From: a virus
IMG/VR virus record: IMGVR_UViG_3300046787_000286
Coordinates: 142,060 to 206,059 of that record
DNA length: 64,000 nucleotides
Reading direction: 5' to 3' (one strand)
A model generated the notes under the pieces. It was not told the origin of the DNA, did not search any database, and saw only the letters and a list, made by a program, of their open reading frames with translations. This document shows positions 34,991 to 63,382 of this stretch, piece by piece (position 1 is the first letter of the stretch; the number at the start of each line of letters is the position of its first letter). A program made the position numbers and the translations under genes.

Positions 34991-35019
34991 ATTATAGCAA
35001 ATGATTAATTAATGGTCAA
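34991..35019 (-). promoter_or_regulatory. Sigma70-type early promoter
   Basis: TTGACC, 17-base spacer ending TTTGC, TATAAT. The TGA of TTGACC is the stop codon of the upstream F-x-L-K-W gene. Confidence 0.88.
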
Positions 35020-35255
35020 CCGCCCCATTTTAGCAGAAAAGCACAGTAATCACGCTCGTTGTCGAAGTAAAATAGGTAGCGACCATCTGCGTGATCCGAA
35101 CTAACTTGTATCAATTGCCAACGCCATTCGCCTTGCATTTCTGATTCCTTGCACCAGGCGATCACTGAGTCCAGGCCGCCAAATGGTTGATGGATTTCGA
35201 CTGCATGTTTAAAACTATCTTTTGCTCTTACAACTAGGTTGTCTAAAACATTCAT
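35016..35255 (-). CDS. F-x-L-[RK]-W tail family member (outside array)
   Basis: 79 residues ending FDNERDYCAFLLKWGG, the same tail as the 45.5-49.6 kb array, with the family's upstream WC motif (VIAWCKESEM). It follows the S11 peptidase gene by ATGA overlap, and its stop lies within a promoter. Because the next gene has its own promoter and leader, the tail here is not needed as a ribosome site, so the protein itself must be under selection. Confidence 0.7.
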   Translation of the reverse strand: MNVLDNLVVRAKDSFKHAVEIHQPFGGLDSVIAWCKESEMQGEWRWQLIQVSSDHADGRYLFYFDNERDYCAFLLKWGG

Positions 35256-36076
35256 AAGTTAGGGGTTAGTTCCATTTCTGGTAGCTGGTTATCTATAACA
35301 TGATTATACATAACCTTCTCAACTGTGCGTATACGGTCTTGTTTTGTTTGGGACCCTAATACCACAATAATGTATTGTTGTTGCTTTTGTTCAACTACTA
35401 ATCCCAAACAAAAACCTGCTCGAGACGTGAATCCAGTTTTGCTCACAACAATGTTATCAAACTCAAACAGCAACGGAGAATTTGTATTTTTTAAATTTAC
35501 AGTTCTAACACGTTTTTTAAATTGAGCTTCAACAGCCACTTGCTTGCGTGTGGTTACTTCTTGAATAATCCAATATCCTGAAGCAGTTTCCATCATGCTA
35601 ACAACTTCTGTTGCTGTACTTATATTGTTAGCACTGAGGCCAGTAGGATCTTCGAATCGAGTGTTCTTCATGCCCCATTCACGGGCTTGTTGATTCATTG
35701 CTGCAATAAACGCAGATCTCCCGCCTGGGTAATCGTTTGCTAGTGTTTCAGCCGCAGCATTGTCCGATCTAACCAGCATGGCTTGTAGCAGTTGCCAGCG
35801 ATTATAAGTTTGTTTGGGCAAATGACTGCCCACACGACCATCTAACTTTAACCTGCGTTGTAGATTTTTATCGTAGTCCAACGCAACCATTGCGGTCATA
35901 ATTTTAGTCACTGATGCAATTGGGCGAACTGCATCTTTGTTATGCGAGTATTCAATACGATCTTTTGCCGAATTGTAAACAATTACACTGGGTTCTGCTT
36001 TTTGAACTCGAGGTTTTGCTACTGCTGTGCCTGCTACTAAAATTAGTGTTATGAAGAAATATTTTATTATGCCCAT
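35252..36076 (-). CDS. S11-family D-Ala-D-Ala peptidase (PBP7-like)
   Basis: 274 residues. Signal peptide MGIIKYFFITLILVAGTAVA. Active-site motifs are complete: SVTK (Ser55, Lys58), SDN (103-105) and KTG (212-214). The size matches the low-molecular-mass PBP7/PbpG class without the C-terminal anchor of DacA. It would trim or cut peptidoglycan cross-links in the periplasm, and could soften the wall for lysis or alter the wall against other phages. Unusual in a phage. Flanked on both sides by F-x-L-K-W family genes. Confidence 0.88.
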   Translation of the reverse strand: MGIIKYFFITLILVAGTAVAKPRVQKAEPSVIVYNSAKDRIEYSHNKDAVRPIASVTKIMTAMVALDYDKNLQRRLKLDGRVGSHLPKQTYNRWQLLQAMLVRSDNAAAETLANDYPGGRSAFIAAMNQQAREWGMKNTRFEDPTGLSANNISTATEVVSMMETASGYWIIQEVTTRKQVAVEAQFKKRVRTVNLKNTNSPLLFEFDNIVVSKTGFTSRAGFCLGLVVEQKQQQYIIVVLGSQTKQDRIRTVEKVMYNHVIDNQLPEMELTPNL

Positions 36077-36294
36077 TTTAACCTGTAAAAACTAGCCATA
36101 GCTGGATCTGCAAACTCAAATATAACTTGGCTATCAGATTCCGGGGTCGAGCTAAAACTATCGCTGTATTTAACGGGCTGAAATCTCCATGTATAATCCT
36201 GATCTACTACTAGACCTGTCCGATCCAGATCTATCTTTAATGCAATAGCTTCAGCAGCGGATAGTTTAGTAATAGTAAGAGAGTTCAGTGTCAA
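36067..36294 (-). CDS. F-x-L-[RK]-W tail family member, start uncertain
   Basis: About 75 residues; no ATG fits, and a TTG at 36294 (LTLNSLTITKLSAAEAIALK) is the best guess. The tail FADPAMASFYRLKWA matches the array family. The start lies inside the 3' end of the gamma-glutamylcyclotransferase-like gene and the stop overlaps the ATG of the peptidase gene. Reading frame confident, start not. Confidence 0.5.
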   Translation of the reverse strand: MTLNSLTITKLSAAEAIALKIDLDRTGLVVDQDYTWRFQPVKYSDSFSSTPESDSQVIFEFADPAMASFYRLKWA

Positions 36295-36682
36295 AATCTT
36301 GTACCAAATGATCAAACGGTTGATTGAAATATCTATACACAGAACGAATGTCATCCACATAACACTTGCTAGGGTTGCCTTCGCGAAAGGATGCCATTTC
36401 GTAAAAGAAAAACTTTTGCTTGCTTTGGCGCATTTGGCGCTTGGTGTAGTAAGATGGAAAACCTTCAAACGAATCCAGTGAGCGCTCGCATTCAGGAGTA
36501 ATATCCCACAGGATTCCCCAAACAGATTCGCCAGGGCTAGGCTCCACTGTTGCATGAGAGTAGAACTTTAGTTTCCAGCCTTGCAAAACAAACGGGCGTG
36601 GATTAGTGGCACCAGGGCAACGGCGTGCCATGCTAGCTTGACTCATATTTGCCCCGTAGGCAAAATACAATTTCTTGGTCAT
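36266..36682 (-). CDS. Gamma-glutamylcyclotransferase-like protein
   Basis: 138 residues of the GGCT/AIG2 fold. LYFAYGANMSQ carries the YGxN-type phosphate-binding loop; VWGILWDITPE and FEGFPSYYTKR supply the usual middle strands with the catalytic Glu position (SFEGF). Family members release 5-oxoproline from gamma-glutamyl amines or peptides. Role in infection unknown. Overlaps its upstream gene by ATGA. Confidence 0.78.
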   Translation of the reverse strand: MTKKLYFAYGANMSQASMARRCPGATNPRPFVLQGWKLKFYSHATVEPSPGESVWGILWDITPECERSLDSFEGFPSYYTKRQMRQSKQKFFFYEMASFREGNPSKCYVDDIRSVYRYFNQPFDHLVQDFDTELSYYY

Positions 36683-44400: not shown

Positions 44401-45487
44401 TGATTTGATTGTCACAGTTCAAGATGATGACAATGACGATTGGGCATTATACAATCGAATCACTGACACTGGCGCAACATTGGGCGAAACAAGACTACGC
44501 CGTGGCGATTTTCGAATTGATTTTCCTGGTGTGTCAAAGACCTTTACCTTTGATGATAGTGGTGTACTTAGTTTACCCGGTGATATTGCTTCTAGCACTC
44601 AAGGCGGAGATATCAGTCTTTATGCAATCGACGATGGCGACAGTGGATCTGCAGAGATAAAAACTATCAGTTTTGCTGGTAGTACGCTAGGTAGTAATGT
44701 CAGAGTAACCCAAAGCAACGCCACTATTTCGACCAGTAACGCTGCATACACCTGGACATTTGATAACACTGGTAATCTAACAGTTCCAGGAAACACCATT
44801 GTTTCCACAGCCAATGCCACAGGCGGTCTAGGTGGTAAGAGCGTAAGCATTACTGCTGGCGCCAGTGACGCAGTTACTTGGAATTCAAACCCAGGTGGCA
44901 ATGTAAACATCACAGGCGGATACGGCTCGTTTGGCGGCGGCGGCGGCGGTCCTGGTGGTAATGTTAATATCACAAGTGGTGGTAGTTCAGATAGCCATGC
45001 AGGCAATGTAACTATCAATTCCGGCGCTAATGCATGGAACTTTGATTACACCGGTAATTTAGACGCCCCGGGTAATATTACATCCACTAACTTTGTCGGC
45101 AACGGCGCAGCATTGACCAATGTTGCTACACAAGTAACAGGTTCCTGGACATTAGCCGCAGGGACAAACACTGCAAATATTACAGTTCCGCCAAACGGTA
45201 CTTACACAATCTGGGTCAATGGAAACATTCCAAACGGTATTGCAGTATGGAACGCTACTGTAACTATTACCAACAATAACGTGCCAGTAATTGGACAACA
45301 ATTTGCTTGGAATTATTCTGGTAATGCGTTGGTGATTACTTCAATTCCATCACAGATCATTGGAACAGCAGGTGCTATTAGTAATGCATCACCGGCTGTT
45401 GGCACAACTACCAATGTGTTTGAGTTCAGCATTGACAACAACAGTGGTAATAGTCAGACTGTGGACTACGGATGGACTAAACTTTAA
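41483..45487 (+). CDS. Large tail-fibre/adhesin protein with Gly-rich repeats
   Basis: 1334 residues. The N-terminal module DIGAAANDGTGDPLRTAF (with NNNFSNVW) matches the 17958 protein and likely anchors it. The shaft holds about nine degenerate copies of W-x-F-x-x-[TA]-G-x-L-x-x-P (e.g. WTFDNTGNLTVPGN), spaced 60-100 residues, as in beta-helical or beta-prism fibres. Residues ~797-920 and ~1114-1180 have repeats of GG[DN][IV]x[IL]xGGxGG, like the polyglycine-II bundles of T-even adhesins. The C-terminal ~110 residues are a distinct beta domain. It is the probable host-recognition fibre. No frameshift seen. Confidence 0.8.
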   Translation: MANQINIDIGAAANDGTGDPLRTAFNYVNNNFSNVWNTGLPNSNVQFSDNRILTVNTNANLVLAPNGIGKVASNVDIVPNTANVFALGGASRRWNTVYGQYLDLSHNAVIGGNLVVTGNLSAGNISYTSNVFVGDLEGSVFDGASSIVLDVIDSTIYVDNYRYANGVPVSFGGNYSNANVAAYLPTYTGNLSANNITAGNVFTAQTVTANDAYINTGTFAGDENTGDAAMYVGSPTFTNLGSDIMAQFTGNVTTYAQINLQNWSNAATASGDYILTADNGNDSTHFLDMGITSSTWDGTQTNVLTGLNPNNGYLYVQDGNLTLGTRAGNVSYSWKFDTTGNLTVAGNVIPTGNNTQSLGSATQQWNDLYLSNATIYMNSVPISLTADNVLTVNGADVVTTNSEGQANIGNLDINGTVIQIAEGASETLINITPSGPTAGWAYLQLPTNGTANTANTRLHNDAGNIEFGTGDFSTGSTNYTWTFNNTGTLVFPANPNGQIYGGQDNDFIITTSNANAATYYFTFSQLGDLTVPINLNVSGNVYTNDIVGAGAGNITITANTQSWLFDDTGMLTLPSEGQIRSVANTGMRLSAGASDVTGLLLNNTGDAELYANANVSVYTDSGNTGWTFDTAGNLTLPGNAGANNASISATVNGSILGLNSQANGSVRLRAYGSAANLVAGMAVFGEDGEVDRVQISTYNPGIDDNNAWVFNTSGDLTTPDGNIFFGTGANSAVIVPAGNSVKIAADRGNTSKNYIDITSSGITIDALGGSTADIRIRAADDIFVQGGDKTSAPGQRGGDINIDGGQGGPDNGVNAGDGGDIAIQGGLGGEILAGGSGDGGDVTLLGGTGSTANVANLLGAGRGGLVVIQGGQGGDQAGNTSLSERGGNVDIYGGQGSFDFANTLPSGLPGHVNLYGGNWGFVNAPSGNIYLNTYDGTNFKTLTYDTAGNVTMAAGGALNMVGSSSGIVQSPNNDLIVTVQDDDNDDWALYNRITDTGATLGETRLRRGDFRIDFPGVSKTFTFDDSGVLSLPGDIASSTQGGDISLYAIDDGDSGSAEIKTISFAGSTLGSNVRVTQSNATISTSNAAYTWTFDNTGNLTVPGNTIVSTANATGGLGGKSVSITAGASDAVTWNSNPGGNVNITGGYGSFGGGGGGPGGNVNITSGGSSDSHAGNVTINSGANAWNFDYTGNLDAPGNITSTNFVGNGAALTNVATQVTGSWTLAAGTNTANITVPPNGTYTIWVNGNIPNGIAVWNATVTITNNNVPVIGQQFAWNYSGNALVITSIPSQIIGTAGAISNASPAVGTTTNVFEFSIDNNSGNSQTVDYGWTKL

Positions 45488-45699
45488 GCCCACCGTAAGT
45501 TAAACCAGGCACGGTCTTGGTCGTTGAGCACTCGCCACACGTCAAAACCACCAAGTGTGCCTTGGTATTCAATTGTGATGCTATTCTCACCTGCCCACTC
45601 ATACACTTCTTGACGCTTTGAGTACGGTGTTGCAATATCACGAGCATCACTCATGAACACATATCCACGATCGTCACGAGCAAACTCTTTGAGTGCCAT
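45484..45699 (-). CDS. F-x-L-[RK]-W array member 1 (last in operon)
   Basis: 71 residues from MALKEFARDDRGYVFMSD, ending LNDQDRAWFNLRWA. The ATG overlaps the previous stop (TAATG). No gene follows on the strand, yet LRW is still present, here coded CGG TGG, not the GAGG form. Family function unknown. Convergent with the fibre gene (4-base overlap). Confidence 0.75.
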   Translation of the reverse strand: MALKEFARDDRGYVFMSDARDIATPYSKRQEVYEWAGENSITIEYQGTLGGFDVWRVLNDQDRAWFNLRWA

Positions 45700-45920
45700 T
45701 ACTGCCACCTCATTGCAAACACTGCGGCTTTTTTAGAGCAGTCGAATTTCCACTCTGGATTACCGATCCATCGCGGATCGTGCCATCCGTCGTCTACACA
45801 AGGGCCAAAGTTCTTTTGACACCATTCAAACATCTCCATGTAGTGGTGCCAGTCTCGTGTGGGTACATTAATAATGTATTTCCACTTTCGTCGATCTTTT
45901 CTACGTTGATGACTATTCAT
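45699..45920 (-). CDS. F-x-L-[RK]-W array member 2
   Basis: 73 residues from MNSHQRRKDRRKWKY, with the WC motif (MFEWCQKNFGPC), ending FDCSKKAAVFAMRWQ. ATGA-coupled. The tail codons form GAGGTGG, eight bases before the next ATG. Confidence 0.75.
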   Translation of the reverse strand: MNSHQRRKDRRKWKYIINVPTRDWHHYMEMFEWCQKNFGPCVDDGWHDPRWIGNPEWKFDCSKKAAVFAMRWQ

Positions 45921-46150
45921 TTCCATCTCAGCAAGAACATTGTGTAGGATTTTTCATCCGGGAACTCAACCATCATTTCCTTGCTCAAGCCATACTTGCC
46001 GCCAAACGAGCCAGCACGAACTTTGCGAGCACCGTAGTCACGGGCTAGCACATCCCAGATACTCATGTGGGTACCGTTGGCGGGTTGATCAAACTTTTCC
46101 CAATACCAGTCGGCAATTTTTTTAAAATAGGGTTCGATGTTTACTCTCAT
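45917..46150 (-). CDS. F-x-L-[RK]-W array member 3
   Basis: 77 residues, ending FPDEKSYTMFLLRWK. YFKKIADWYWEKFDQPANGT and SIWDVLARDYG are nearly the same as in member 13 (48546), so this is a recent duplicate. ATGA-coupled. Confidence 0.75.
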   Translation of the reverse strand: MRVNIEPYFKKIADWYWEKFDQPANGTHMSIWDVLARDYGARKVRAGSFGGKYGLSKEMMVEFPDEKSYTMFLLRWK

Positions 46151-46542
46151 GACGTATATTTTAACGCAATCATCATAGCGTCCCTTTCATCGTTTGTTGC
46201 CACAAATACTTTATCTCTATCACCCATTCCGTTAATGTCCCATTCCCCAGTCCATTGGTTCCACATGACTCGTTCAAATTGCCAAACGCAAGTGTTAGTA
46301 ACTGGACGCTGTGGCCAAAAATATTGCCTAGCATCTTCGCATGGCACATAAGCAAATGGTTCGCATATATCAAAGAACTTGTTTGGGCTGACTATGATAA
46401 CATGTTTAAAGTTTTGGAACATGTTAGGGATTGTGCTAGCACGATAGACTACATTCTCTTCGTACCACGCTTCCCACTCTCGTGTAGCCTTGTCCTTACC
46501 GGTACGCCAGGTTAGCCACCGGTCTTTGATCCATTCAATCAT
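46147..46542 (-). CDS. F-x-L-[RK]-W array member 4 (long, divergent tail)
   Basis: 131 residues from MIEWIKDRWLTWRTGKDKAT. It ends NDERDAMMIALKYTS, a degenerate version of the tail with the Trp replaced by Tyr. The longest member apart from the P-loop fusion. The long aromatic N-terminal half is not shared with other members. Confidence 0.6.
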   Translation of the reverse strand: MIEWIKDRWLTWRTGKDKATREWEAWYEENVVYRASTIPNMFQNFKHVIIVSPNKFFDICEPFAYVPCEDARQYFWPQRPVTNTCVWQFERVMWNQWTGEWDINGMGDRDKVFVATNDERDAMMIALKYTS

Positions 46543-46721
46543 GACCATTTCAACTTATATACGATGTAAATATCTTCGTCCATGTAGATATTGTCTAGCC
46601 CGTAGTCATACTGTGTACCCCAACGACGACCTTCTGGACCAAAGTTGAGCCCTAGCCAATGTCGTACCTCACTCTTACGAACTGCTGGCCAGTTCTCAAT
46701 TGCTATTCCGTATTGCTTCAT
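46539..46721 (-). CDS. F-x-L-[RK]-W array member 5
   Basis: 60 residues, ending DIYIVYKLKWS. Contains HWLGLNFGPEGRRWGTQYDY, the family's W-x-x-x-FG-type middle. Not overlapped with the upstream gene (one-base gap). Confidence 0.7.
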   Translation of the reverse strand: MKQYGIAIENWPAVRKSEVRHWLGLNFGPEGRRWGTQYDYGLDNIYMDEDIYIVYKLKWS

Positions 46722-46722
46722 G

Positions 46723-46944
46723 TTACATCTTTAACAAAAACATCATGTAGTCCTTTTCTTCTTTGAACACAATGTAGTTCTTGTCTTTGCGCCAACTAAA
46801 CTCTTGGTCACCGTTGTACTCTGCTTTAACAAACTGCCAAAAGCTCTTGCTGTACACGCCCTTGCCGCGACTAAGCATTGCATCAACGATTCTTGCACTG
46901 TATTCCTCTGCAAGTACCCTGTGTTTTTTGCGGAATACGTTCAT
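46723..46944 (-). CDS. F-x-L-[RK]-W array member 6 (tail ends KM)
   Basis: 73 residues from MNVFRKKHRVLAEEYSARI; the ATG overlaps the stop of member 7 as ATGA. Ends FKEEKDYMMFLLKM, where the terminal Trp is replaced by Met. The middle has FWQFVKAEYNGDQEFSWRKD. The coding tail gives no GAGG sequence, and the next gene starts after one spare base. Confidence 0.65.
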   Translation of the reverse strand: MNVFRKKHRVLAEEYSARIVDAMLSRGKGVYSKSFWQFVKAEYNGDQEFSWRKDKNYIVFKEEKDYMMFLLKM

Positions 46945-47228
46945 AGCCATTTCAACTTTATAAACGTCATCAAGTCCTCGCGCACATGATAGATAGCACG
47001 ATGTCGCTCACCGGAGGCTTCCCATTGTTCATCTTTAGTGCCATTAGCTTCGATCCAGTCTCCGAACCAGTAACTGCAATTTAAGCGATACCAAAGGATC
47101 CCGTCATTACGATCGTGTGGGTAGAAACCGACTTCTCCCCCGAGCTCGTAGTGATATAACTTGTCGCCGTATAGCGGATCACCTTCAATCGGACGCTTTC
47201 TGTAAACCCATTTTTGAAAATCTCCCAT
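46941..47228 (-). CDS. F-x-L-[RK]-W array member 7
   Basis: 95 residues, ending VREDLMTFIKLKWL. Middle is rich in Trp and Tyr (WYRLNCSYWFGDWIEANG). TAATG overlap with member 8. A second Lys-rich variant of the tail. Confidence 0.7.
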   Translation of the reverse strand: MGDFQKWVYRKRPIEGDPLYGDKLYHYELGGEVGFYPHDRNDGILWYRLNCSYWFGDWIEANGTKDEQWEASGERHRAIYHVREDLMTFIKLKWL

Positions 47229-47428
47229 TATGCAAACCTCAACTTAAACCACATTAGATCTTTCTTGCGCTTGAAGTAGATTTCATCACTAAAGTGATAG
47301 TAGTGCCAATTTTTACGCAGGAAGTTTTCGTTGCAAAAAGCAAAGTGCTGTTCTCTTTCGGTAGGGTGTGTTGGCACACAATGCTTGAACTTTTCTTCAT
47401 ACGTGCCGTAATCAACAATCAGTGTCAT
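47228..47428 (-). CDS. F-x-L-[RK]-W array member 8
   Basis: 66 residues from MTLIVDYGTYEEKFKHC, with the C motif (HFAFCNENFLRK), ending FKRKKDLMWFKLRFA: here Phe replaces Trp. GAGG occurs in the tail codons. Confidence 0.7.
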   Translation of the reverse strand: MTLIVDYGTYEEKFKHCVPTHPTEREQHFAFCNENFLRKNWHYYHFSDEIYFKRKKDLMWFKLRFA

Positions 47429-47655
47429 GACCACTTCAGTGCAAAGTACACTGCATCTTTTTGCTCACTAAATTTAAACTCAGCGTGAGACCACCCATTC
47501 TCGTTTTTCCAACTGCCTTTGCAATTTTTCCTACACCAACGAGCTGCTAGTTCAACCTTTTGGTCATGCTCGAAGTAGCGTTTTTGTTCGGCAGTGCGAA
47601 GTGTGATAATGTGAGGATGCTCACGTTTTGCTTTGCGTCTTTGTGCTGAATTCAT
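47425..47655 (-). CDS. F-x-L-[RK]-W array member 9
   Basis: 76 residues from MNSAQRRKAKREHPHI, ending FSEQKDAVYFALKWS, with AARWCRKNCKGS. Its N-terminus resembles member 2 (MNSHQRRKDRRK). ATGA-coupled to the next gene. Confidence 0.75.
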   Translation of the reverse strand: MNSAQRRKAKREHPHIITLRTAEQKRYFEHDQKVELAARWCRKNCKGSWKNENGWSHAEFKFSEQKDAVYFALKWS

Positions 47656-47900
47656 GATGCCCACTTTAATACAAACGCGGTATGACTGGATTCTTTATCC
47701 CACCGCAAATACCAACCTTGTGTTTTTGTGATAACAAGTTTGCCCCCAAGCGGCCTAAGTTGATAGTTCATAACAGTTGCAGTAGACCAGCCATTTGTAC
47801 GAGCAATCCCTTGGCAATGTTCCAAGAAGTTATCAAACCACTTAGGGCTGTCATCTTTCCAATAGCTTTTTAAAATAGTAACACGAAATTTATCAGGCAT
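47652..47900 (-). CDS. F-x-L-[RK]-W array member 10
   Basis: 82 residues from MPDKFRVTILKSYWKDD, with FLEHCQGIARTNGW, ending DKESSHTAFVLKWAS. The ATG overlaps the previous TAA. Confidence 0.75.
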   Translation of the reverse strand: MPDKFRVTILKSYWKDDSPKWFDNFLEHCQGIARTNGWSTATVMNYQLRPLGGKLVITKTQGWYLRWDKESSHTAFVLKWAS

Positions 47901-48094
47901 TATTTCCACCTCAACATAAACCACTCTGCGTCTTGTTTACGCTCAAACTTAACAGCCGTGCTTGAGCGATGAATATGATACATACCTTTGCTGTCGTGTG
48001 TCCGCAACCATTCCCACTGGTCGTTATTCAACGGCCGTTTTAACAGAACATTCGTCCAGTCTTTTGTATTGTGCGAATCTGGCGTGTGAATCAT
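47900..48094 (-). CDS. F-x-L-[RK]-W array member 11
   Basis: 64 residues from MIHTPDSHNTKDWTN, ending FERKQDAEWFMLRWK. Middle WEWLRTHDSKGMYH. GAGGTGG lies in the tail codons before the next ATG. Confidence 0.75.
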   Translation of the reverse strand: MIHTPDSHNTKDWTNVLLKRPLNNDQWEWLRTHDSKGMYHIHRSSTAVKFERKQDAEWFMLRWK

Positions 48095-48549
48095 GACCAC
48101 TTCAACTTATAAAACACAAAATCTTTTTCATCGCGGAAGTGAATTTCTCCGACACCAACCCACCAACGACTCCACGCATCTGGTTTGTCGGGGTGCTTTC
48201 CGAACTGCTCGGTACACCATTCGATGATTTCGTTATACTCACGGCCTAGACGCCAGATGCCATTGCCAATGTCAACAGTGTGCCACTTAGCACGGCTAAA
48301 TTGGTATTTGGGTTTTGTAACAGGATGCATTGGCAAGAAAATTTCCTTACATAAGTTAGAACCCATTACAGAAACGCTTCGCTGTTTCAATGCTGAATAG
48401 TAGTATAAAGAAATCAGACTCTTACCAGTTTGTCGACCACCGGAGAAAATCATCATTTCACTAGGATGAATACCGCCAGTAGTATTACTTAATACCGTTG
48501 GCGTCAGGGCGTCCCAAGCTTCGAGATCAACTATTGTTTTATTTTTCAT
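48091..48549 (-). CDS. P-loop / F-x-L-[RK]-W fusion protein
   Basis: 152 residues from MKNKTIVDLEAWDALTPTVL. The first ~45 residues include a P-loop, MMIFSGGRQTGKSLISLYYY (Walker A GRQTGKS), as in packaging or helicase ATPases, but nothing like Walker B follows. From ~85 on it is an ordinary family member: IIEWCTEQFGKHPD and the tail FRDEKDFVFYKLKWS. It looks like a fusion of a P-loop stub to an array unit. Coupled at both ends. Confidence 0.7.
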   Translation of the reverse strand: MKNKTIVDLEAWDALTPTVLSNTTGGIHPSEMMIFSGGRQTGKSLISLYYYSALKQRSVSVMGSNLCKEIFLPMHPVTKPKYQFSRAKWHTVDIGNGIWRLGREYNEIIEWCTEQFGKHPDKPDAWSRWWVGVGEIHFRDEKDFVFYKLKWS

Positions 48550-48758
48550 GACCACCTCAGTATAAACCAATTGCGTGTTTTTTCATCGGGAAATGCCACC
48601 ACTATTTGCTGGCTGGCTGCGCTGCCAAAGGTGTGGCTAATACCATACTCGCGGTCAAGCCAATCCCAGATACTAACATTGGACTTGTATGGGTTATCCC
48701 AATAGTGATTAGCGACCTTCTTGAAGTAGGGATAGATGTCTGCATAGATTTTAGTCAT
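48546..48758 (-). CDS. F-x-L-[RK]-W array member 13
   Basis: 70 residues from MTKIYADIYPYFKKVANH, ending FPDEKTRNWFILRWS. Close duplicate of member 3 (IWDWLDREYG versus IWDVLARDYG). Tail codons CTG AGG TGG TCA TGA give GAGGTGG five bases before the next ATG. Confidence 0.78.
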   Translation of the reverse strand: MTKIYADIYPYFKKVANHYWDNPYKSNVSIWDWLDREYGISHTFGSAASQQIVVAFPDEKTRNWFILRWS

Positions 48759-48967
48759 GACCACCTCAGTACAAATAACACAGCATCCTGTTTGGATCTA
48801 AAATGCCACACAGTTTGGTCCCGGCGAAACATAGCACCCCTGTAGTCTTCTTGACAGTTTTGTTTGCACCACACAAACCTCTCGTCCTTGCCCCATACCC
48901 AACCACCTGAATGTGGTACTTCCACACGATGCTGGAGATCTCGGCTGCGACTGTATTTTGCTGTCAT
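48755..48967 (-). CDS. F-x-L-[RK]-W array member 14
   Basis: 70 residues from MTAKYSRSRDLQHRVEVP, with RFVWCKQNCQED, ending FRSKQDAVLFVLRWS. Same GAGGTGG tail junction as member 13. Confidence 0.78.
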   Translation of the reverse strand: MTAKYSRSRDLQHRVEVPHSGGWVWGKDERFVWCKQNCQEDYRGAMFRRDQTVWHFRSKQDAVLFVLRWS

Positions 48968-49149
48968 AACCACTTCAATGCAAACATTGTAGCATCTTTT
49001 TCATGTTGAAAGTTAAATGTAACATACTGTCGTTTATCAATAACTTCCCATGTGCGATTAAGCAAGTTCATGCCATGCTCTTGTGCCCATTCCTGGCGCT
49101 CTGACACTTCAATGATATTGCGACATGCAACAGTTACAGGATACCACAT
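48964..49149 (-). CDS. F-x-L-[RK]-W array member 15
   Basis: 61 residues from MWYPVTVACRNIIEVSER, ending FQHEKDATMFALKWL. Middle RQEWAQEHGMNL lacks the Cys. TAATG-coupled to the upstream gene. Confidence 0.75.
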   Translation of the reverse strand: MWYPVTVACRNIIEVSERQEWAQEHGMNLLNRTWEVIDKRQYVTFNFQHEKDATMFALKWL

Positions 49150-49340
49150 TACGACCACCTCAATGCAAATAGCACAGCACTCGCTTGCTCGTTAAACTTG
49201 AAAATAAAATCTGCTTTTCCAGCAGCCATGCCATAAGTCCAATCTCTTTGCCATTGAAAATCGTTGTCTACTTCGAGCCAGTCAAATACATCGGGTAACA
49301 CTTTGTCCCGTGGGAGCTTGATTGAAACATCGTAAGTCAT
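49149..49340 (-). CDS. F-x-L-[RK]-W array member 16
   Basis: 63 residues from MTYDVSIKLPRDKVLPDV, ending FNEQASAVLFALRWS. Middle VFDWLEVDNDFQWQ. GAGGTGG junction. Confidence 0.75.
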   Translation of the reverse strand: MTYDVSIKLPRDKVLPDVFDWLEVDNDFQWQRDWTYGMAAGKADFIFKFNEQASAVLFALRWS

Positions 49341-49516
49341 GACCACCTCAACAAAAACAATGTGTAGTCTTTTTCATTTTCAAAATAAACAGTTTCGTTC
49401 CGCCAAAACCAGTATACATAACCAAAGGCGTCACGGCACCATTGAACTATTTCGTTAAATGGCGCAGAACCGTTATACTGCCAAACGTATACTTTCGACG
49501 TGCTTACAGCCCCCAC
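49337..49516 (-). CDS. F-x-L-[RK]-W array member 17 (first in array), start uncertain
   Basis: About 59 residues if a GTG at 49516 is used; an ATG at 49579 would overlap the SWIM gene by 107 bases. It has IVQWCRDAFGYVYWFW and ends FENEKDYTLFLLRWS. It joins directly to the SWIM gene; GAGGTGG lies in its tail. Confidence 0.65.
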   Translation of the reverse strand: MGAVSTSKVYVWQYNGSAPFNEIVQWCRDAFGYVYWFWRNETVYFENEKDYTLFLLRWS

Positions 49517-49829
49517 GGAACCGGAAGCCGGAACAAGTGCAGTTGAAATTTCCACTATTCTCTGTGACTTTGTATTCATCGCCTTTGCTACCTTTCACAA
49601 CCCACATACGACCTAGGGGCTCATCCTCTTTGAGTTTTGTTTTAAACTGCACAGGATTCACAATAAACTTGCGGCCACGAGTTTCAATCTTGATGGGATT
49701 CCGGAACACTTTGATGTCGCCTGTGCCCCGGGGTTTGAAAGCATACATCTTGACCTTGGCATCATCCAGCAAGTAGATACCGTTGGGAACAGAGTCCTTG
49801 TAGTCAGTTGTTTCAGCAAACCATTTCAT
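49473..49829 (-). CDS. SWIM-type zinc-finger protein
   Basis: 118 residues. The C-terminus FNCTCSGFRFRGGCKHVESI is the SWIM pattern CxC...CxH, which binds zinc and often nucleic acid or protein. The beta-rich N-terminal part (KVKMYAFKPRGTGDIKVF, then RMWVVKGSKGDEYKVT) is unknown. First gene upstream of the array, from which it is read; ATGA-coupled to 49826. Confidence 0.75.
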   Translation of the reverse strand: MKWFAETTDYKDSVPNGIYLLDDAKVKMYAFKPRGTGDIKVFRNPIKIETRGRKFIVNPVQFKTKLKEDEPLGRMWVVKGSKGDEYKVTENSGNFNCTCSGFRFRGGCKHVESIRLAV

Positions 49830-50032
49830 TCTTCAACTCCGACTATTTCAAGGAAATCACTGCGGTAAAGTTCCTCTATCTCTTTAGCAAACTCTTTGTT
49901 GCCAAACTCATGCGTGAATACAGGTCGACCCAGACGCTTCTCAACATCGCCGTGAAAGTCACTAAATTTACATGCCAACTTACCAGTAAAGCCGGTAATC
50001 ACAATAGCCTGTTCTTTAGAAAGTTTTTTCAT
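49826..50032 (-). CDS. Small conserved phage protein
   Basis: 68 residues, MKKLSKEQAIVITGFTGKLA. I recall similar small proteins beside SWIM genes in other phages. Unknown. Coupled by ATGA at both ends. Confidence 0.6.
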   Translation of the reverse strand: MKKLSKEQAIVITGFTGKLACKFSDFHGDVEKRLGRPVFTHEFGNKEFAKEIEELYRSDFLEIVGVEE

Positions 50033-50160
50033 TTTGCCATTACCTTTGCTAACACTTCGCGGGCTAAAGTCAAATCTACAATTTCTGGTTCCTGTTCAAC
50101 AGGCCATGCTTCGTAAGTTTGAGTCCAAACAATGCGATACAGTTCGTTGTCTTTGTTCAT
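50029..50160 (-). CDS. 43-residue protein
   Basis: A small gene from ATG 50160 to TGA 50029: MNKDNELYRIVWTQTYEAWP, then a helical tail ending AREVLAKVMAK. TAATG with the gene upstream and ATGA downstream support it. Unknown. Confidence 0.65.
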   Translation of the reverse strand: MNKDNELYRIVWTQTYEAWPVEQEPEIVDLTLAREVLAKVMAK

Positions 50161-50432
50161 TACACTGCCTCTAACATGTTAGCAGGAACGTTGAACACCG
50201 AACTACCAGTCTTGACAAGAACATACTTGATTTTAACCTTGTTTACTGTGCCAGTGTACGTGATACCATTGCGATTGCTGGTAAATTTCACAGCATCGCC
50301 AACACGGAATGAACGAGTCTTTTGTTTGGTCATTTGTGCGCGAGCATATTTTACTGCTTCGACTACACTGTTGATTTCGTCGTTGGTGAGATTACCAAAC
50401 ATGATTGCAGAGTTGATGTCTTTGATGTCCAT
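50160..50432 (-). CDS. Conserved phage protein with SH3/KOW-like barrel
   Basis: 90 residues. The helical MDIKDINSAIMFGNLTNDE start and the basic KTRSFRVGDAVKFTSNRNGI, then YTGTVNKVKIKYVLVK, suggest a small KOW/SH3 barrel that could bind RNA or ribosome. Conserved in T4-like phages, as I recall. First gene of the promoter 50463 transcript. Confidence 0.65.
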   Translation of the reverse strand: MDIKDINSAIMFGNLTNDEINSVVEAVKYARAQMTKQKTRSFRVGDAVKFTSNRNGITYTGTVNKVKIKYVLVKTGSSVFNVPANMLEAV

Positions 50433-50462: not shown

Positions 50463-50491
50463 ATTATAGCAAATCGGTAATTTTTGGTCAA
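50463..50491 (-). promoter_or_regulatory. Sigma70-type early promoter of the array operon
   Basis: TTGACC, 17-base spacer ending TTTGC, TATAAT; 24-base leader to 50432. No further promoter is seen before 45484, so about 5 kb and 21 genes depend on it. Confidence 0.88.
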
Positions 50492-50492
50492 C

Positions 50493-50759
50493 TCAATTTA
50501 CCACTTTGTAGCTGTCTTTTTCGAAGAACAACCCGTATACTTTAGTATTAACTCTGCGTTCTGTTCCCACACGCCAATCTGAGCAGTGATGGGTTCCGCC
50601 TGACCCAGCCCAAGCACCGCAGTAGGAGTAGGATACTGTATAGGGCTCGCTTACAACTTCGTAAGTGCCAAACACATCATTGACAATGCTAGTACCCACA
50701 ATTCCAAAAACTGTTAGTACACAAGCCACGATGCAGAAGTTTGTTTGTTTTGCTGTCAT
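50493..50759 (-). CDS. Exported or membrane protein, leaderless start
   Basis: 88 residues from MTAKQTNFCIVACVLTVFGI: an N-terminal membrane helix followed by a Ser/Tyr/Gly-rich exported domain with two Cys (SYCGAWAGSGGTHHCSDW) that could form a disulfide. Predicted +1 is the A of this ATG. Superinfection exclusion is one possible role, but only from topology. Confidence 0.65.
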   Translation of the reverse strand: MTAKQTNFCIVACVLTVFGIVGTSIVNDVFGTYEVVSEPYTVSYSYCGAWAGSGGTHHCSDWRVGTERRVNTKVYGLFFEKDSYKVVN

Positions 50760-50765
50760 GTGTAT

Positions 50766-50794
50766 ATTATAGCAAAACGGAAAATTCTGGTCAA
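50766..50794 (-). promoter_or_regulatory. Sigma70-type early promoter, leaderless geometry
   Basis: TTGACC, 17-base spacer ending TTTTGC, TATAAT, six bases, ATG at 50759. Confidence 0.9.
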
Positions 50795-50861
50795 CCAAGC
50801 AAAATGTAATACTTTTGTAATACTAGTGTTTATACTGAGATATTTCCTCCAATAATATGTG

Positions 50862-50867
50862 TAAATA
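50862..50867 (+). promoter_or_regulatory. Late-promoter-like box, leaderless geometry
   Basis: GTGTAAATA on the plus strand, five bases, then ATG at 50873; +1 predicted on the A. Confidence 0.55.
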
Positions 50868-50872
50868 TTTGT

Positions 50873-51250
50873 ATGAACTCCAGAGAATACGCAAAATTTA
50901 AAAGACTGTTTGTTGGGCCAATTATGCCAAGAAAAGTAGTCAAAGAAAGATTTTATAGTGTAATGCCTACAAAATCAAATCCTCGGCCCTTGTTAGAAAA
51001 GGGAGATGTTAGAAAGTTGTGGGACAGAGCCGCGGTGCGTAGATATGCTACTCCTTCTTGGGCTGACAAAAATCAAATTGATCAACTATACACTGAGGCT
51101 AGAAAACTAACACTAGAAACTGGAATACCACACGAAGTTGATCATATTATACCTGTCAAGCATCCTTTGGTATGTGGGCTACATGTAGAAACTAATTTAC
51201 GTATTCTATCAGGAACTGTAAACAATAAAAAATCAAATTTTTATAATTAA
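50873..51250 (+). CDS. HNH endonuclease
   Basis: 125 residues. EVDHIIPVKHPLVCGLHVET then NLRILSGTVNNKKSN is the HNH core (DHxxP...H...N...N.KK). Basic N-terminus. A homing or free-standing endonuclease on the plus strand; the second plus-strand nuclease with the TAAATA-N5-ATG arrangement. Confidence 0.85.
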   Translation: MNSREYAKFKRLFVGPIMPRKVVKERFYSVMPTKSNPRPLLEKGDVRKLWDRAAVRRYATPSWADKNQIDQLYTEARKLTLETGIPHEVDHIIPVKHPLVCGLHVETNLRILSGTVNNKKSNFYN

Positions 51251-51287
51251 TAGGGTTCCTTCTTATGGTTTCTACTGAGTATCATGG

Positions 51288-51293
51288 TAAATA
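51288..51293 (+). promoter_or_regulatory. Late-promoter-like TAAATA box
   Basis: ATGGTAAATACT on the plus strand, 18 bases before the ATG at 51312, with GAAGGA between. Confidence 0.5.
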
Positions 51294-51311
51294 CTACGAA
51301 GGAAAAATATC

Positions 51312-51467
51312 ATGAAATTACTACAATGGATCAAAAGTCTGTTTGCAGCACCGTCTTATCAAGACCAGCTAGACAGTTTCGTAGCTAGCAAACGCCCAAC
51401 ATCAACTGCCGAAGTTGAACATTGGCTCAGAGTCTACGATCAACATCAAAAAGGATGCACACTATGA
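51312..51467 (+). CDS. 51-residue protein
   Basis: Begins MKLLQWIKSLFAAPSYQDQL, followed by a helical core ending WLRVYDQHQKGCTL. Resembles DUF3563-like small proteins in size and layout, which is weak support. Plus-strand pair with the next gene, joined by ATGA. Confidence 0.6.
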   Translation: MKLLQWIKSLFAAPSYQDQLDSFVASKRPTSTAEVEHWLRVYDQHQKGCTL

Positions 51468-51559
51468 AAAAGTTTTTAACAGCAGTTTGGGATTTTTTTG
51501 TCGAGTGGGGCGAGTATCGCTACCAAGTGGCCAAACGTCGTGGCTTCATGACTTACTGA
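51464..51559 (+). CDS. 31-residue protein
   Basis: A very short gene: MKKFLTAVWDFFVEWGEYRY, then QVAKRRGFMTY. An amphipathic aromatic helix with a basic end. Its ATG overlaps the upstream stop, which supports translation. Ends in the 3' end of the opposite 51553 gene. Unknown. Confidence 0.5.
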   Translation: MKKFLTAVWDFFVEWGEYRYQVAKRRGFMTY

Positions 51560-51801
51560 GGTTCTAACAACCAACCCTGCCCGCTTGCTCGATGATACCA
51601 GCGGTAAAAAGGCTCAGATATAATTAATTTTCCATCTACAGCCATATACGAGTATTTGGGCAGTATTTCTATTCTATCTATTACAACCGCATCGTTGGCA
51701 GAAAATGATAATATATCGTGAAGGCCAGCTTCATGTTCTATTCCATTTATAACAACAGTTAACGTTGGCTCAGTAGCCAGCAGTTCTGAAAAGTTCTTCA
51801 T
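51553..51801 (-). CDS. Small conserved phage protein
   Basis: 82 residues, beta-rich (TLTVVINGIEHEAGLHDIL). Unknown. Its start overlaps the end of the radical SAM gene by 32 bases. Confidence 0.55.
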   Translation of the reverse strand: MKNFSELLATEPTLTVVINGIEHEAGLHDILSFSANDAVVIDRIEILPKYSYMAVDGKLIISEPFYRWYHRASGQGWLLEPQ

Positions 51802-53041
51802 ATTCGGGTAGGTAGGTTAAGACAGAGTTTCCTCTGTTGGATTCAAGCTGCTTCAAGTATTTGACCAAGTCTGGCAAGCGCCAACTTTCATCTGGTTCAG
51901 TACTTAGATAATTTACGTAACTTTGTAAGTCTTGCACCAATTGTGCTTGCACAGTGTTGGGATTTCTAATGTTCACTATTTGATCGCTTGTGATCATATG
52001 AGCATCGATCCAGGCTTGCATTTTATCTATAATCTGTTGTCTATAACTCATTGGCAATACTGAAGGTTTTAGAACTTCCGGTCTATATAAAAAATTACAG
52101 CTTTCAACGATAATGCTATGTGCTAGTGCATAATCGTATATAGGAAGCAGTGTATGAACAGTCAAACAAGTAGGCGTTGTTCTAAATTGCATTAACCATT
52201 TGAGTTCATTGGCTACTGTTTTCCATCGTTCTAGATTTTCAAACACTGTTGGCAAGCATACTGGCCAACGAACATAGTCGTTGATAATGCTAAAACTTTC
52301 AACACTGAATCCAAGATTAACACCCTTGAATTGTTTAAGTAAATCAACAATATCATTGTCCCATACTGACAGATTAGTAGTGAACCCAATGGTTGCATTT
52401 GTGTTTAGCCCTGCGTCAACTAGTGCTTGTAGGATAATTCTAAACGCCGGGGTAATTAATGTTTCGCCGCCAATAAAGTGCAAATACTGTATATGTGGAC
52501 TTTGCTTTAATGTGTTGATAAATTTCTGAACTAATAAAGGATCATCGCTCCAGTTAGCAGGTGGCATCTCAGTGATGAACCCAATTTTTTTCCATTCAGC
52601 AGCAAGGCGTGAACTTGACTCTGGTCTGCAAAAGACGCAGGCACTGTTACAAAAATTTCCCAAATCTATTTGCCAATCTTGTGGGTACTGGCTACACTTA
52701 CTGTCGCCAAATGTAGACACCCATGGGCTGCTTGCTAACGTTTTTTCAAACTCATCTAGTCTAACTCCAACTTTGAGTAACTGTTTTTGCCTGCCGCTGA
52801 TTTTATCATGCTTTTCCATGCTGCGACAAGTGTGGCATCCTGCAGGGCTTGCGCCTTGCAGTAACTCATTTCTCAGGGGTTGCATTATTGTTTGAAAATA
52901 ATCAACTGGATCAATATCTCTAATATTGTGAGTGCGCGGGGATTGGGCCCAGCGACAATACTCAAAATCACCAGAATTTGTTATTCTCATGTGAATCCAA
53001 GGGCTTGAGCAAAAGTTATTTTTGATATTGTTCTCTGACAT
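51770..53041 (-). CDS. Radical SAM protein (twitch/SPASM-type), second copy
   Basis: 423 residues. The cluster motif is CNSACVFC (Cys131, Cys135, Cys138). LHFIGGETLITPAF and LGFSVESFSIINDYV are the expected core strands. An N-terminal Cys region (NNFCSSPWIHMRITNSG, EYCRWAQ, CHTCRSMEKHDK) resembles an auxiliary SPASM-type site moved to the N-terminus, as in the 25677 protein, though the two are otherwise divergent. The two glycosyltransferase-like genes upstream suggest that the product acts on a glycan or its precursor. Substrate unknown. Confidence 0.8.
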   Translation of the reverse strand: MSENNIKNNFCSSPWIHMRITNSGDFEYCRWAQSPRTHNIRDIDPVDYFQTIMQPLRNELLQGASPAGCHTCRSMEKHDKISGRQKQLLKVGVRLDEFEKTLASSPWVSTFGDSKCSQYPQDWQIDLGNFCNSACVFCRPESSSRLAAEWKKIGFITEMPPANWSDDPLLVQKFINTLKQSPHIQYLHFIGGETLITPAFRIILQALVDAGLNTNATIGFTTNLSVWDNDIVDLLKQFKGVNLGFSVESFSIINDYVRWPVCLPTVFENLERWKTVANELKWLMQFRTTPTCLTVHTLLPIYDYALAHSIIVESCNFLYRPEVLKPSVLPMSYRQQIIDKMQAWIDAHMITSDQIVNIRNPNTVQAQLVQDLQSYVNYLSTEPDESWRLPDLVKYLKQLESNRGNSVLTYLPEYEELFRTAGY

Positions 53042-53975
53042 AAATTTTAAATCTGTTTTGATTGTACAGTAGTTTTTCTTGAAGTTGCAAAAATTTCATT
53101 TGCAAATAATCAGTTGGTTGTTTACACAATTCTGTTAAAAATACAGGAATATTATATGGTGCTGTTAGATCTGCATCAGTGATATCTTCAAAATCATCAA
53201 CGTATGTTTCGAATCCCCGACTGTGCAAACATTCCACGCCCCCATTGGGTGCATAAAGTAAAAAAGGTCTTAGCCCTAGTATAGGCTTAAATGTTTTTTC
53301 ACTTAGGAAATTACTAGGCTCAATGTCCCAGATAGTTTCAGTGATAATGTTAACAAAATGTCGTTTCCAATTGCTGATGTTTCCCAAACTCACGATGTCA
53401 TTGCCAATTCCGTATTGTTCAGTTCCGCCATTGGGTGCAAGATCTTGCCCCGGACTATCTTCATTAAGTAGTCTCAGTGGTGGCGTACCGCCCATGCTTA
53501 CAAATCCACAATCTAGTAGCCCTGCTGCTTCTAACCCTTGATATAATCTCATTCGATGTTGATGCGGCTTTCTATTCAAGCACATGTATGCCGTATCTAT
53601 CATGTCATGAGTTAGTAAAAGAGACTGATCAACCGGCTGATAAAAATGCTCCATAAACAATGGAAAATAATCAACATACCCCTGGCCTGAATAATACCCA
53701 ATGCCATGCACTTCACAATTTAATTCGTCAAACCAATCGAGTTGAACAATCGGAGGATCTAACATTGCAACAACAAAAATATGACTGGGTTGTATCTTGC
53801 GTAATTCTGCCATCACCTGTTGATGATAATCACCTGTGTACCAGACACTGTTGATTATCACTGCTCTGCTATCGTCAGCGTAATACTTTGATAACTTAGT
53901 CTTGATGATTTGTCGCTCAAGTTGCTTCATGGGCCAATTTGTGCCCCAGCCTATGTCATACTCCTTTAAAATCAC
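53016..53975 (-). CDS. Glycosyltransferase-like protein (GT-B, fucosyltransferase-type C-terminus)
   Basis: 319 residues. The C-terminal part NIITETIWDIEPSNFLSEKT, FKPILGLRPFLLYAPNGGVE and GFETYVDDFEDIT is the nucleotide-sugar-binding signature of GT10-type enzymes ([LV]TEK-x-[FW]xPI...P[FV][LIV]). The N-terminal half is Rossmann-like. Paralogous to the next gene, with similar C-terminal blocks. Likely transfers a sugar to a cell-surface or phage glycan. Confidence 0.7.
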   Translation of the reverse strand: MILKEYDIGWGTNWPMKQLERQIIKTKLSKYYADDSRAVIINSVWYTGDYHQQVMAELRKIQPSHIFVVAMLDPPIVQLDWFDELNCEVHGIGYYSGQGYVDYFPLFMEHFYQPVDQSLLLTHDMIDTAYMCLNRKPHQHRMRLYQGLEAAGLLDCGFVSMGGTPPLRLLNEDSPGQDLAPNGGTEQYGIGNDIVSLGNISNWKRHFVNIITETIWDIEPSNFLSEKTFKPILGLRPFLLYAPNGGVECLHSRGFETYVDDFEDITDADLTAPYNIPVFLTELCKQPTDYLQMKFLQLQEKLLYNQNRFKIYVREQYQK

Positions 53976-62055: not shown

Positions 62056-62344
62056 ATTGAAATATCATTCTGGCTAGTGCTACACTATCTATGCTGACTA
62101 ACAAGAAGTAGTTGGCTAACATACCTAGACTCTTTCGTGTCCATGCCGCCCATGCAAAGATAACGCATTGTGTAATGAACAATGGGTATAGGATCAAGAA
62201 AGGCGGATTAGGAACAGTTAGCATCATAGTAAATGAGCATCCGATACTCAAGAACCATGCCAAGATTTCTAATCCACAACGTAGAGGATTACTGCGCCAG
62301 TCCTCCCGTATCCATGCAACAATATTAAGCAGTAAATTGTTCAT
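62054..62344 (-). CDS. Small membrane protein
   Basis: 96 residues from MNNLLLNIVAWIREDWRSNP. Three hydrophobic stretches: GLEILAWFLSIGCSFTMMLT, LILYPLFITQCVIFAWAAW and LANYFLLVSIDSVALARMIF. I recall a similar protein in other T4-like phages. The start lies 20 bases inside the UvsE gene. Unknown. Confidence 0.65.
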   Translation of the reverse strand: MNNLLLNIVAWIREDWRSNPLRCGLEILAWFLSIGCSFTMMLTVPNPPFLILYPLFITQCVIFAWAAWTRKSLGMLANYFLLVSIDSVALARMIFQ

Positions 62345-63347
62345 ACAGTTGTTCACTTGCTAGATTCTTGCTCTTGGCCTCGCACTGAATATCAAAGTTG
62401 TCAGCAAAGCCTAACACCCAGTCATTACAAGCTGTATTCCACATCATATCAGAGTGTGCGCGGAGCTTTTGCTTTTTAAAACCTCCAGCAAGAAGTTGAT
62501 CAAGGTCTGGTCGAACTCCTGTATCATGACCAACCAAAACATCTTCGCGGCTAACAGAGTAGTGAAGAGTAGGACGCTGGTCGCGCCAAGACTCAATAAC
62601 CCGCATCGTGCGAGCGTCCTTGGGATCGATGTACTCGCCGGAATTAATCCAATGGTGGTGAACGTCCAGAACAAGAGCAACATGCTCAGCCACAAGTAAA
62701 GTACTATCAAGTCCATTTGTCATCTCGTCGTTTTCGATGGAAATTAAGTTCCTGGCCTCTGGAGTGAGACGACCTAGTGTCTTCAGGAATTTAGTGGCAC
62801 CACCTTTGCCACTCAAATGCACGTTTATTTTAAATCCATGATCATGCCAACTTGAACCGTAACCCATCCAGCGAGCCATGTCCGCGTGATACTCAAATTC
62901 GAGTATCGAACGTTCCACGATGTCGTCGGACTCACTAGCCAGTACACAGAATTGCCCAGGGTGAAACGACAATCGAACACCAAGTTCTCGAGCACGAGCA
63001 CCAATCGGAGCAAAGATTCGGGCACAGTGATCTTGAACATCTTGCTGTTGCCAAAACGGAATCCAATCTTCATGTGTGTATCCTTGTAGCATTTCTGAGC
63101 CCAGGCGCACCATGCGGCGGCCTTCGGGCATGGCACCCACACGTTCCACCATAAGCAGAGCCGCACGAGCATTGTGATTCATAATGTCCCACTGACGCTG
63201 TTCTGCTTCGCTCTTGTGTTCGCGAAGCCAGCGCATTGTAGTAGAACGCCCGTTTAGTTCACGGCTCTCAACTGTGGGCTTGCGACCCGCAGTTTCAGAG
63301 GGATGATCGAGCCATTTGCAGCAAAAGCCAATTCGAGGTGTATTCAT
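62325..63347 (-). CDS. UV-damage endonuclease UvsE/UvdE
   Basis: 340 residues from MNTPRIGFCCKWL. Typical blocks in order: SFHPGQFCVL, INVHLSGKGGATKFL, ISIENDEMTNGLDSTLLVAE, VALVLDVHHHWINSGEYI and LRAHSDMMWN. These supply the His/Glu/Asp metal ligands of the TIM-barrel endonuclease that nicks 5' of UV photoproducts. A phage copy would repair its DNA in sunlit water. The promoter at 63354 makes the mRNA leaderless. The length is slightly more than usual. Confidence 0.9.
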   Translation of the reverse strand: MNTPRIGFCCKWLDHPSETAGRKPTVESRELNGRSTTMRWLREHKSEAEQRQWDIMNHNARAALLMVERVGAMPEGRRMVRLGSEMLQGYTHEDWIPFWQQQDVQDHCARIFAPIGARARELGVRLSFHPGQFCVLASESDDIVERSILEFEYHADMARWMGYGSSWHDHGFKINVHLSGKGGATKFLKTLGRLTPEARNLISIENDEMTNGLDSTLLVAEHVALVLDVHHHWINSGEYIDPKDARTMRVIESWRDQRPTLHYSVSREDVLVGHDTGVRPDLDQLLAGGFKKQKLRAHSDMMWNTACNDWVLGFADNFDIQCEAKSKNLASEQLYEQFTA

Positions 63348-63353
63348 GATGTA

Positions 63354-63382
63354 ATTATACAACATTACGAAAATTGTGTCAA
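63354..63382 (-). promoter_or_regulatory. Sigma70-type early promoter, leaderless geometry
   Basis: TTGACA, 17-base spacer, TATAAT, six bases, ATG at 63347. It lies in the last codons of the upstream gene. Confidence 0.85.

Follow-up and report, generated by a model that had tools for sequence, protein, structure and literature searches.

The closest described counterpart of the gene array reported here is the ORFanage of the T4-type phage S-PM2, a long run of small, coupled, early-type open reading frames (ORFs) that are shuffled between phages (PMC4503421). Few relatives of its proteins are recognised, a short junction sequence (AATGACTGA) recurs among its genes, and the mechanism of exchange was left open in that study. 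Modular shuffling in T4-type phages has also been described for promoter early stem-loop (PeSL) elements, conserved non-unique DNA at gene borders that is thought to permit the exchange of small early genes (Arbiol 2010 and Comeau 2014, as cited in PMC4503421). On the host side, the Gol region, in the first quarter of the T4 head protein gp23, activates Lit (PMC3014915), and the CapRel (PMC9712102) and Thoeris (PMC11312562) defences are triggered by capsid protein. We analysed a window of 64,000 nucleotides, positions 142060-206059 of a 214,006-bp virus record (IMGVR_UViG_3300046787_000286, here G000), in which 17 small genes on the minus strand (W01 to W17, Table 1) form a coupled operon encoding a protein family that we named LRW. 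The genes are joined by a multi-purpose seam, are exchanged one at a time between phages and evolve under purifying selection, and in related arrays some of them carry segments of core phage proteins.

The LRW array resembles the ORFanage in its organisation, its exchange and its scarcity of recognised relatives. The ORFanage proteins are, however, not LRW members: the best hidden Markov model (HMM) match had an E value of 0.004, for one of 37. No core-protein segments have been reported for them. The S-PM2 junction is an analogous seam in an unrelated array. In the ORFanage locus (L237), many small-gene junctions end in AATGACTGA, and many proteins end in ND and begin with MTD or MTE. In contrast to PeSL, the LRW seam is a 3' coding end with a Shine-Dalgarno site and a stop/start overlap, not a promoter with a stem-loop. 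No stem-loop was seen at LRW seams, and the PeSL arrangement of an early promoter and a terminator stem-loop at exchange borders was not found; the exchange borders coincide with the coding seam.

An ORF check bore out the 17 consecutive small minus-strand genes at 45484-49579 that an earlier note on this DNA had recognised. With ATG starts, the genes overlap by 4 nt (ATGA) at eleven of the 16 junctions and by 1 nt at four, and at the remaining one they are separated by a 1-nt gap. All junctions but one therefore do overlap, as the note had stated, but its overlap lengths of 1 to 20 bases were a start-codon artefact, the long ones arising from GTG or TTG codons further upstream, within the tail of the gene before. 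The usual 3' end of a gene is TTT NNN TTG AGG TGG TCA TGA, which encodes F-x-L-R-W-S-stop. The GAGGTG in this tail DNA immediately precedes the next gene's ATG and is complementary to the 3' end of 16S rRNA. The stretch TTG AGG TGG TCA TGA holds the next gene's Shine-Dalgarno site together with its overlapping start, and the genes therefore end in one reusable seam. In the window and in two further loci that were not chosen by DNA pattern (L005 and L012), AGG encodes 17 of 22 tail arginines, compared with 10 of the 143 arginines in the rest of these genes (p=2.7e-12); the tail leucine and lysine codons lean to TTG and AAG. This codon bias indicates that the tail is under nucleotide-level constraint.

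Membership in the LRW family was defined by a profile match and a C-terminal F-x-L-[RK]-W helix. Thirteen of the 17 window genes match at E<1e-3; the other four were assigned by tail, position or relatives. The array members are mostly 60-95 residues long. The tail of the earlier note holds for 14 of them as F-x-[LMIV]-[RK]-[WFYM], or a one-residue variant of it, near the C-terminus, while the rest carry variants of the YKLKWS, IKLKWL and ALKYTS types. The middle motif W-C-x-x-x-F-G was also confirmed and corresponds to the first helix of the common domain. Members 3 and 13, taken earlier for near duplicates, are only 44% identical in protein sequence. The family extends beyond the array to a second array of G000 (G000 50721-53650), to one single gene in the window and probably to another.

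Searching with the seam DNA pattern recovered at least 119 stretches of IMG/VR contigs, which together with the first loci encode at least 634 distinct tail-bearing proteins. Starting from any one of six window members, iterated profile searches pick up more than 560 of 623 such proteins. That set was preselected by the tail, and the independent test of the family therefore used the body alone, with the tail removed. A profile of this kind, trained on half of the loci, detected at E≤0.01 132 of the 317 members that had been held out and none of 317 shuffled sequences. A tail-less model was matched as far as its last position by 439 ORFs, 370 of which finish in an LRW tail. Over all fetched loci, HMM matches were found for 758 of 7,280 distinct small ORFs (a metallophosphoesterase caught by the tail pattern, L019_+10, was rejected as a member). 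The LRW family is common in environmental large phages, and it occurs in two cultured ones: Sinorhizobium phage Phosso has 21 matches, the best at 2.8e-12, and in Agrobacterium phage Atu_ph07 the A1 profile gave 7. No LRW profile match was found in P-SSM2, HTVC008M, CBB or NCTB, and BLAST of the array DNA or its 17 proteins against annotated phages gave no match. In bacterial and archaeal genomes the seam pattern gave nine single matches, and the only LRW array is L246, a 6.4-kb contig of a Bacteroidetes metagenome-assembled genome (UBA11400, DLXM01000070) that is possibly a misbinned phage.

AlphaFold modelled W01 as strand-helix-strand-strand-helix, with a predicted local distance difference test score (pLDDT) of 84-90 over residues 31-80, and a member of the second array as beta-beta-alpha-beta-beta-alpha (mean pLDDT 85, predicted template modelling score 0.76). 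Both models share the core, and some members are without the first hairpin. The LRW domain is thus predicted to be a small beta-beta-alpha-beta-beta-alpha fold, with F-x-L-[RK]-W at the end of its final helix. The view that the genes form one family without a name stands: body profiles link the members, and no family in Pfam, NCBIfam, PHROGs or PADLOC was consistently matched (no value was better than 0.0026, and each concerned just one to three members). In PDB, neither a fold at Foldseek E≤0.001 nor a profile at E≤0.001 was found. The best viral structure matches are uncharacterised phage proteins, one of them from Atu_ph07. Small beta/alpha proteins of the eIF1/SUI1 fold (YciH, aIF1) recurred weakly in the fold searches, but with a Foldseek probability of 0.18 at most, E above 1 and no sequence match.

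The tail is a protein feature besides being a nucleotide signal, because W17 retains FNLRWA, with CGG, although no gene follows that it could serve, because tail-less models still detect the family, and because a lone Atu_ph07 protein (AUZ95077) ends in FILRFH. The strong AGG bias and the seam sequence would also be expected if the residues were kept solely as the ribosome-binding site of the next gene, in otherwise unrelated proteins. That account holds in part. As a full explanation it is contradicted by the tail-less profile tests, which show the bodies to be homologous and rule out the tail as a translation artefact alone; moreover, the conserved phenylalanine and the preceding strand fall outside the Shine-Dalgarno site, and the tail is kept where no coupled gene follows. 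We consider it very improbable. The earlier note had also allowed that the tails might prove unrelated by structure; on checking, they did not.

The related phages L012 and L013 also have an array at this position, but clear counterparts exist in it for just four window genes, W05 with 90% protein identity and W01, W12 and W15 with 43-52%. Array content is almost completely different between related phages. W05 and its L012 counterpart are 92% identical over 223 nt; the similarity begins at the upstream GAGGTGG-CATGA seam and stops at the downstream seam, with abrupt ends at both and unrelated flanks. Copies of W04 in L054 (86% identical) and of W12 in L061 (87%) are likewise bounded by seams, so that for each of these three genes another phage, a different one each time, has a copy with 86-92% identity among unrelated neighbours. 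When all loci are taken together, the stop codon is within 6 nt of 31 of the 61 3' ends of similarity that were resolved, and 21 of the 48 resolved 5' ends lie between -25 and +9 of the ATG; in 14 gene pairs from different contigs the similarity is bounded by seams on both sides. Since most of these loci were found through the seam pattern, the numbers describe the position of the breaks and not the frequency of exchange. Phages swap single LRW genes with breakpoints at the seams.

The ratio of nonsynonymous to synonymous substitution rates (dN/dS) between W05 and its L012 counterpart is 0.14. It is well below 1 in 10 of 11 homologous pairs, the eleventh being 98% identical with a dS of 0. Evolution is purifying in the pairs tested, and positive selection is rejected for them. 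The earlier description of a fast-diversifying family is therefore right in that gene content varies among related phages, but diversification by selection is unsupported. The variability of the arrays reflects old divergence and the exchange of whole gene cassettes.

Some LRW members have N-terminal extensions of 30-90 residues. In a non-random sample of 72 extensions, made up of the longer ones and candidates and searched at a loose cut-off (E≤1), Pfam Gp23 (PF07068) matches 14 (best 4e-12) and PHROG_138, the major head protein, 13 (best 5e-14). Used as query, a full gp23 from the related phage G016 finds similarity at E≤0.01 in 13 of the 685 array proteins, the best E being 1.5e-15, whereas 20 shuffled versions match none and 308 other ORFs of at least 300 residues from three of these phages match at most one array protein each. 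At least 13 array proteins of relatives thus contain N-terminal gp23-derived segments, with similarity above both the shuffled and the proteome controls. The segments come from three conserved regions, residues ~50-100, 157-216 and 335-376 of 398-408. In the environmental loci, every gp23-matching small ORF ends in an LRW or LRW-variant tail, apart from a contig-end piece of gp23 itself. One fragment (L106) aligns to T4 gp23 86-132 in PDB (E 1.6e-4), and 1,666 phage records match one gp23-like fragment, those among the matches listed being mostly major head or capsid proteins. In Phosso, XYS97328 joins a gp23 segment (336-376 of the phage's own major capsid protein, E 6e-6) to an LRW domain (E 2e-10). 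LRW proteins differ from capsid proteins in having only 30-60-residue pieces of gp23, fused to an unrelated domain. In this subset of members, found in relatives, the extensions derive from conserved T4-type proteins, mostly gp23. The earlier suggestion of receptor mimicry finds nothing to support it; what is imitated, in related arrays, are core proteins of phages, above all gp23.

Residues common to fragment and donor mostly use different codons, and dN/dS of the gp23-like part is ~0.27 in the one testable pair. The peptide itself therefore appears conserved, and the gp23 resemblances are old and at the protein level rather than fresh DNA copies. The differing codons rule out recent DNA copies of gp23 and make a homing-site decoy at the DNA level unlikely. 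Misassembly is also unlikely, as the records G001 and G002 carry the same fusions and Phosso is an isolate. Where both are known, the fragments differ from the phage's own gp23 (e.g. ~42% identity in G016). Short capsid segments or capsid proteins are what Lit, CapRel and Thoeris detect, and the commonly captured piece aligning to T4 gp23 86-132 falls in the same first quarter as Gol, the exact overlap being unmeasured. All three are host systems.

Only W06 in the window array is composite, and L014 and L117 have N-terminal parts homologous to its own. Within this part, a Walker A segment tentatively resembles a DnaB-type helicase (PHROG_19) and a short peptide the NrdA active site of related phages (Table 1), and a helicase-like ORF of a related phage matches L014 with E 0.008. 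NrdA-like segments match Ribonuc_red_lgC (E 0.05), and a relative, G002:150773-151045, contains ISSMYPS, like polymerase motif A. These helicase, NrdA and DNA polymerase matches are short and tentative. Other recurrent N-terminal modules (LRPMKTGK, PAGYTDDLGIIADxNQWV, KKRAMA) were seen in L030, L033, L120, L064, L072, L087, L067 and L071.

G000 contains 30 TTGAC-N16-19-TATAAT sites, all on the minus strand, compared with 0 in shuffled sequence, and such sites lie upstream of both of its arrays. Many of the 30 share a spacer (AAAATTGCCCGATTTGC). No late-type motif was found at the arrays, and promoter- and terminator-like sites within the array region are no commoner than expected from shuffling. 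The promoter sequences suggest that the array is transcribed early by host RNA polymerase.

The host-type promoter would drive the array early, and the array would supply an interchangeable set of small binding proteins. Their likeliest role would be counter-defence, with the members bearing core-protein segments acting as decoys or antagonists of bacterial sensors of phage proteins such as capsid protein. We favour this role because array content is exchangeable between phages, because the promoters are of host type, and because bacterial defences (Lit, CapRel, Thoeris) are documented to respond to capsid protein. The anti-defence or host-takeover role proposed in the earlier note is plausible, and we put the whole explanation, a coupled, seam-exchanged early operon most likely serving counter-defence through such decoys or antagonists, at roughly 40%. 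We are doubtful of a reading as a protein-level library, in which a constant C-terminal domain would carry exchangeable N-terminal segments like those of capsid, helicase, ribonucleotide reductase and polymerase, be expressed early from tandem genes swapped one by one at a seam that combines coding, ribosome binding and recombination, and blind host sensors or sabotage rival phages. Several points weigh against the favoured explanation. No Gp23 match was found in G000, the 17 window genes included, and the weak helicase- and NrdA-like segments of W06 could be chance. For most members no donor segment can be recognised, so the family as a whole cannot function by mimicry. In Phosso, a gp23 piece without an LRW domain lies upstream of the annotated start of XYS97433 (PV764938 182280-182546, L261). 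Early expression is read from promoter sequence, and a decoy that retains the recognised peptide might trigger the sensor instead of blocking it.

The main rival to counter-defence is interference between phages, in which LRW proteins bearing gp23, helicase or NrdA segments might poison the machinery of co-infecting T4-type phages, their repertoire being shuffled to suit local rivals. It would explain why gp23, a multimeric protein whose fragments could be dominant-negative, is by far the commonest donor and why fragments are clearly unlike the phage's own gp23, and cassette exchange implies frequent co-infection. However, an early capsid poison would endanger the phage's own capsid, there is no sign that the fragments resemble rivals' gp23 more than its own, and NrdA or helicase active-site peptides are unlikely inhibitors; we judge interference unlikely. 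Less probable still is a non-adaptive sink, an exchangeable early region that gains pieces of conserved genes by recombination and keeps them as harmless. Seam exchange is frequent, and the best-known analogous region, the S-PM2 ORFanage, was lost in culture without harm (PMC4503421), but purifying selection in homologous pairs, including the gp23-like part, the tails on all environmental gp23-like small ORFs and the shared residues with different codons all speak against a sink. Lowest among the three we place a role in regulating or chaperoning head assembly and replication of the same phage, with docking through segments of the client proteins. The donors are indeed the phage's own core set and the segments are held at the protein level; against this, array content is almost wholly different between related phages, and the arrays share host-type promoters and no late-type motif. 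Counter-defence remains the role we prefer.

Table 1. Features of the LRW operon and related genes in the window (window positions)
Feature	Position	Strand	Remarks
sigma70-type promoter TTGACC-N17-TATAAT	50766..50794	-	upstream of gene 50493-50798
sigma70-type (early-type) promoter TTGACC-N17-TATAAT	50463..50491	-	nearest promoter-like site upstream of operon
First operon gene, 90 aa, non-LRW	50160..50432	-	
Small coupled gene, 43 aa	50029..50160	-	
PHROG_13999 family gene, coupled	49826..50032	-	E 4e-32
SWIM-type zinc-finger-like gene	49473..49829	-	C-x-C-x(n)-C-x-H pattern read from sequence; homologue precedes L012 array
W01, LRW family, tail FLLRWS	49337..49579	-	structure-model query
W02, LRW family, tail FALRWS	49149..49340	-	
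W03, LRW family, tail FALKWL	48964..49149	-	
W04, LRW family, tail FVLRWS	48755..48967	-	L054 single-gene cassette 86% nt identical
W05, LRW family, tail FILRWS	48546..48758	-	L012 single-gene cassette 92% nt identical
Example seam CTGAGGTGGTCATGA (W05 3' end and W06 start)	48546..48560	-	LRWS-stop, Shine-Dalgarno GAGGTG, next ATG
W06, LRW domain with ~85-residue N-terminal extension	48091..48549	-	
W06 residues 25-44, GGIHPSEMMIFSGGRQTGKS, helicase-like Walker A segment (tentative mimic)	48418..48477	-	PHROG_19 E 0.058
W06 residues 65-73, NLCKEIFLP, like NrdA active-site peptide of related phages (tentative mimic)	48331..48357	-	
W07, LRW family, tail FMLRWK	47900..48094	-	
W08, tail FVLKWAS	47652..47900	-	missed by HMM at 1e-3
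W09, LRW family, tail FALKWS	47425..47655	-	
W10, LRW family, tail FKLRFA	47228..47428	-	
W11, variant tail IKLKWL	46941..47228	-	
W12, LRW family, tail FLLKM	46723..46944	-	L061 single-gene cassette 87% nt identical
W13, variant tail YKLKWS	46539..46721	-	G002 and G016 relatives are HMM matches
W14, 131 aa from second ATG, variant tail ALKYTS	46147..46542	-	
W15, LRW family, tail FLLRWK	45917..46150	-	
W16, LRW family, tail FAMRWQ	45699..45920	-	
W17, last member, FNLRWA, Arg codon CGG	45484..45699	-	no downstream gene to serve
Single LRW member outside array, tail FLLKWGG	35016..35255	-	E 2e-8
ORF with LRW-like C-terminus YRLKWA, probable family single	36067..36555	-	start uncertain, overlaps another ORF

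The 3' end of the array meets a plus-strand gene of 1,334 residues tail to tail. Four further small minus-strand genes lie upstream of the array, and the SWIM-type zinc-finger-like one among them directly precedes the array in the window as well as in L012 (6659-7072). The single LRW gene is coupled to an ORF at 35252-36076 that resembles a D-Ala-D-Ala carboxypeptidase (SVTK, SDN and KTG motifs by eye). Elsewhere, the window contains a UV-damage endonuclease-like gene (62325-63365) with 48% identity to one of Phage NCTB, and two genes with radical SAM domains (25677-27203 and 51770-53041).

Our analysis provides an anatomical account of how a large phage can build and reshuffle a hypervariable region of small genes, with one short seam serving three purposes. 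LRW is a large, virus-restricted protein family that is missing from the family catalogues searched. The presence of capsid-protein pieces inside likely early proteins is unexpected and offers a testable idea of how phages may handle capsid-sensing defences. A cultured phage with a gp23-LRW fusion, Phosso, makes direct testing possible.

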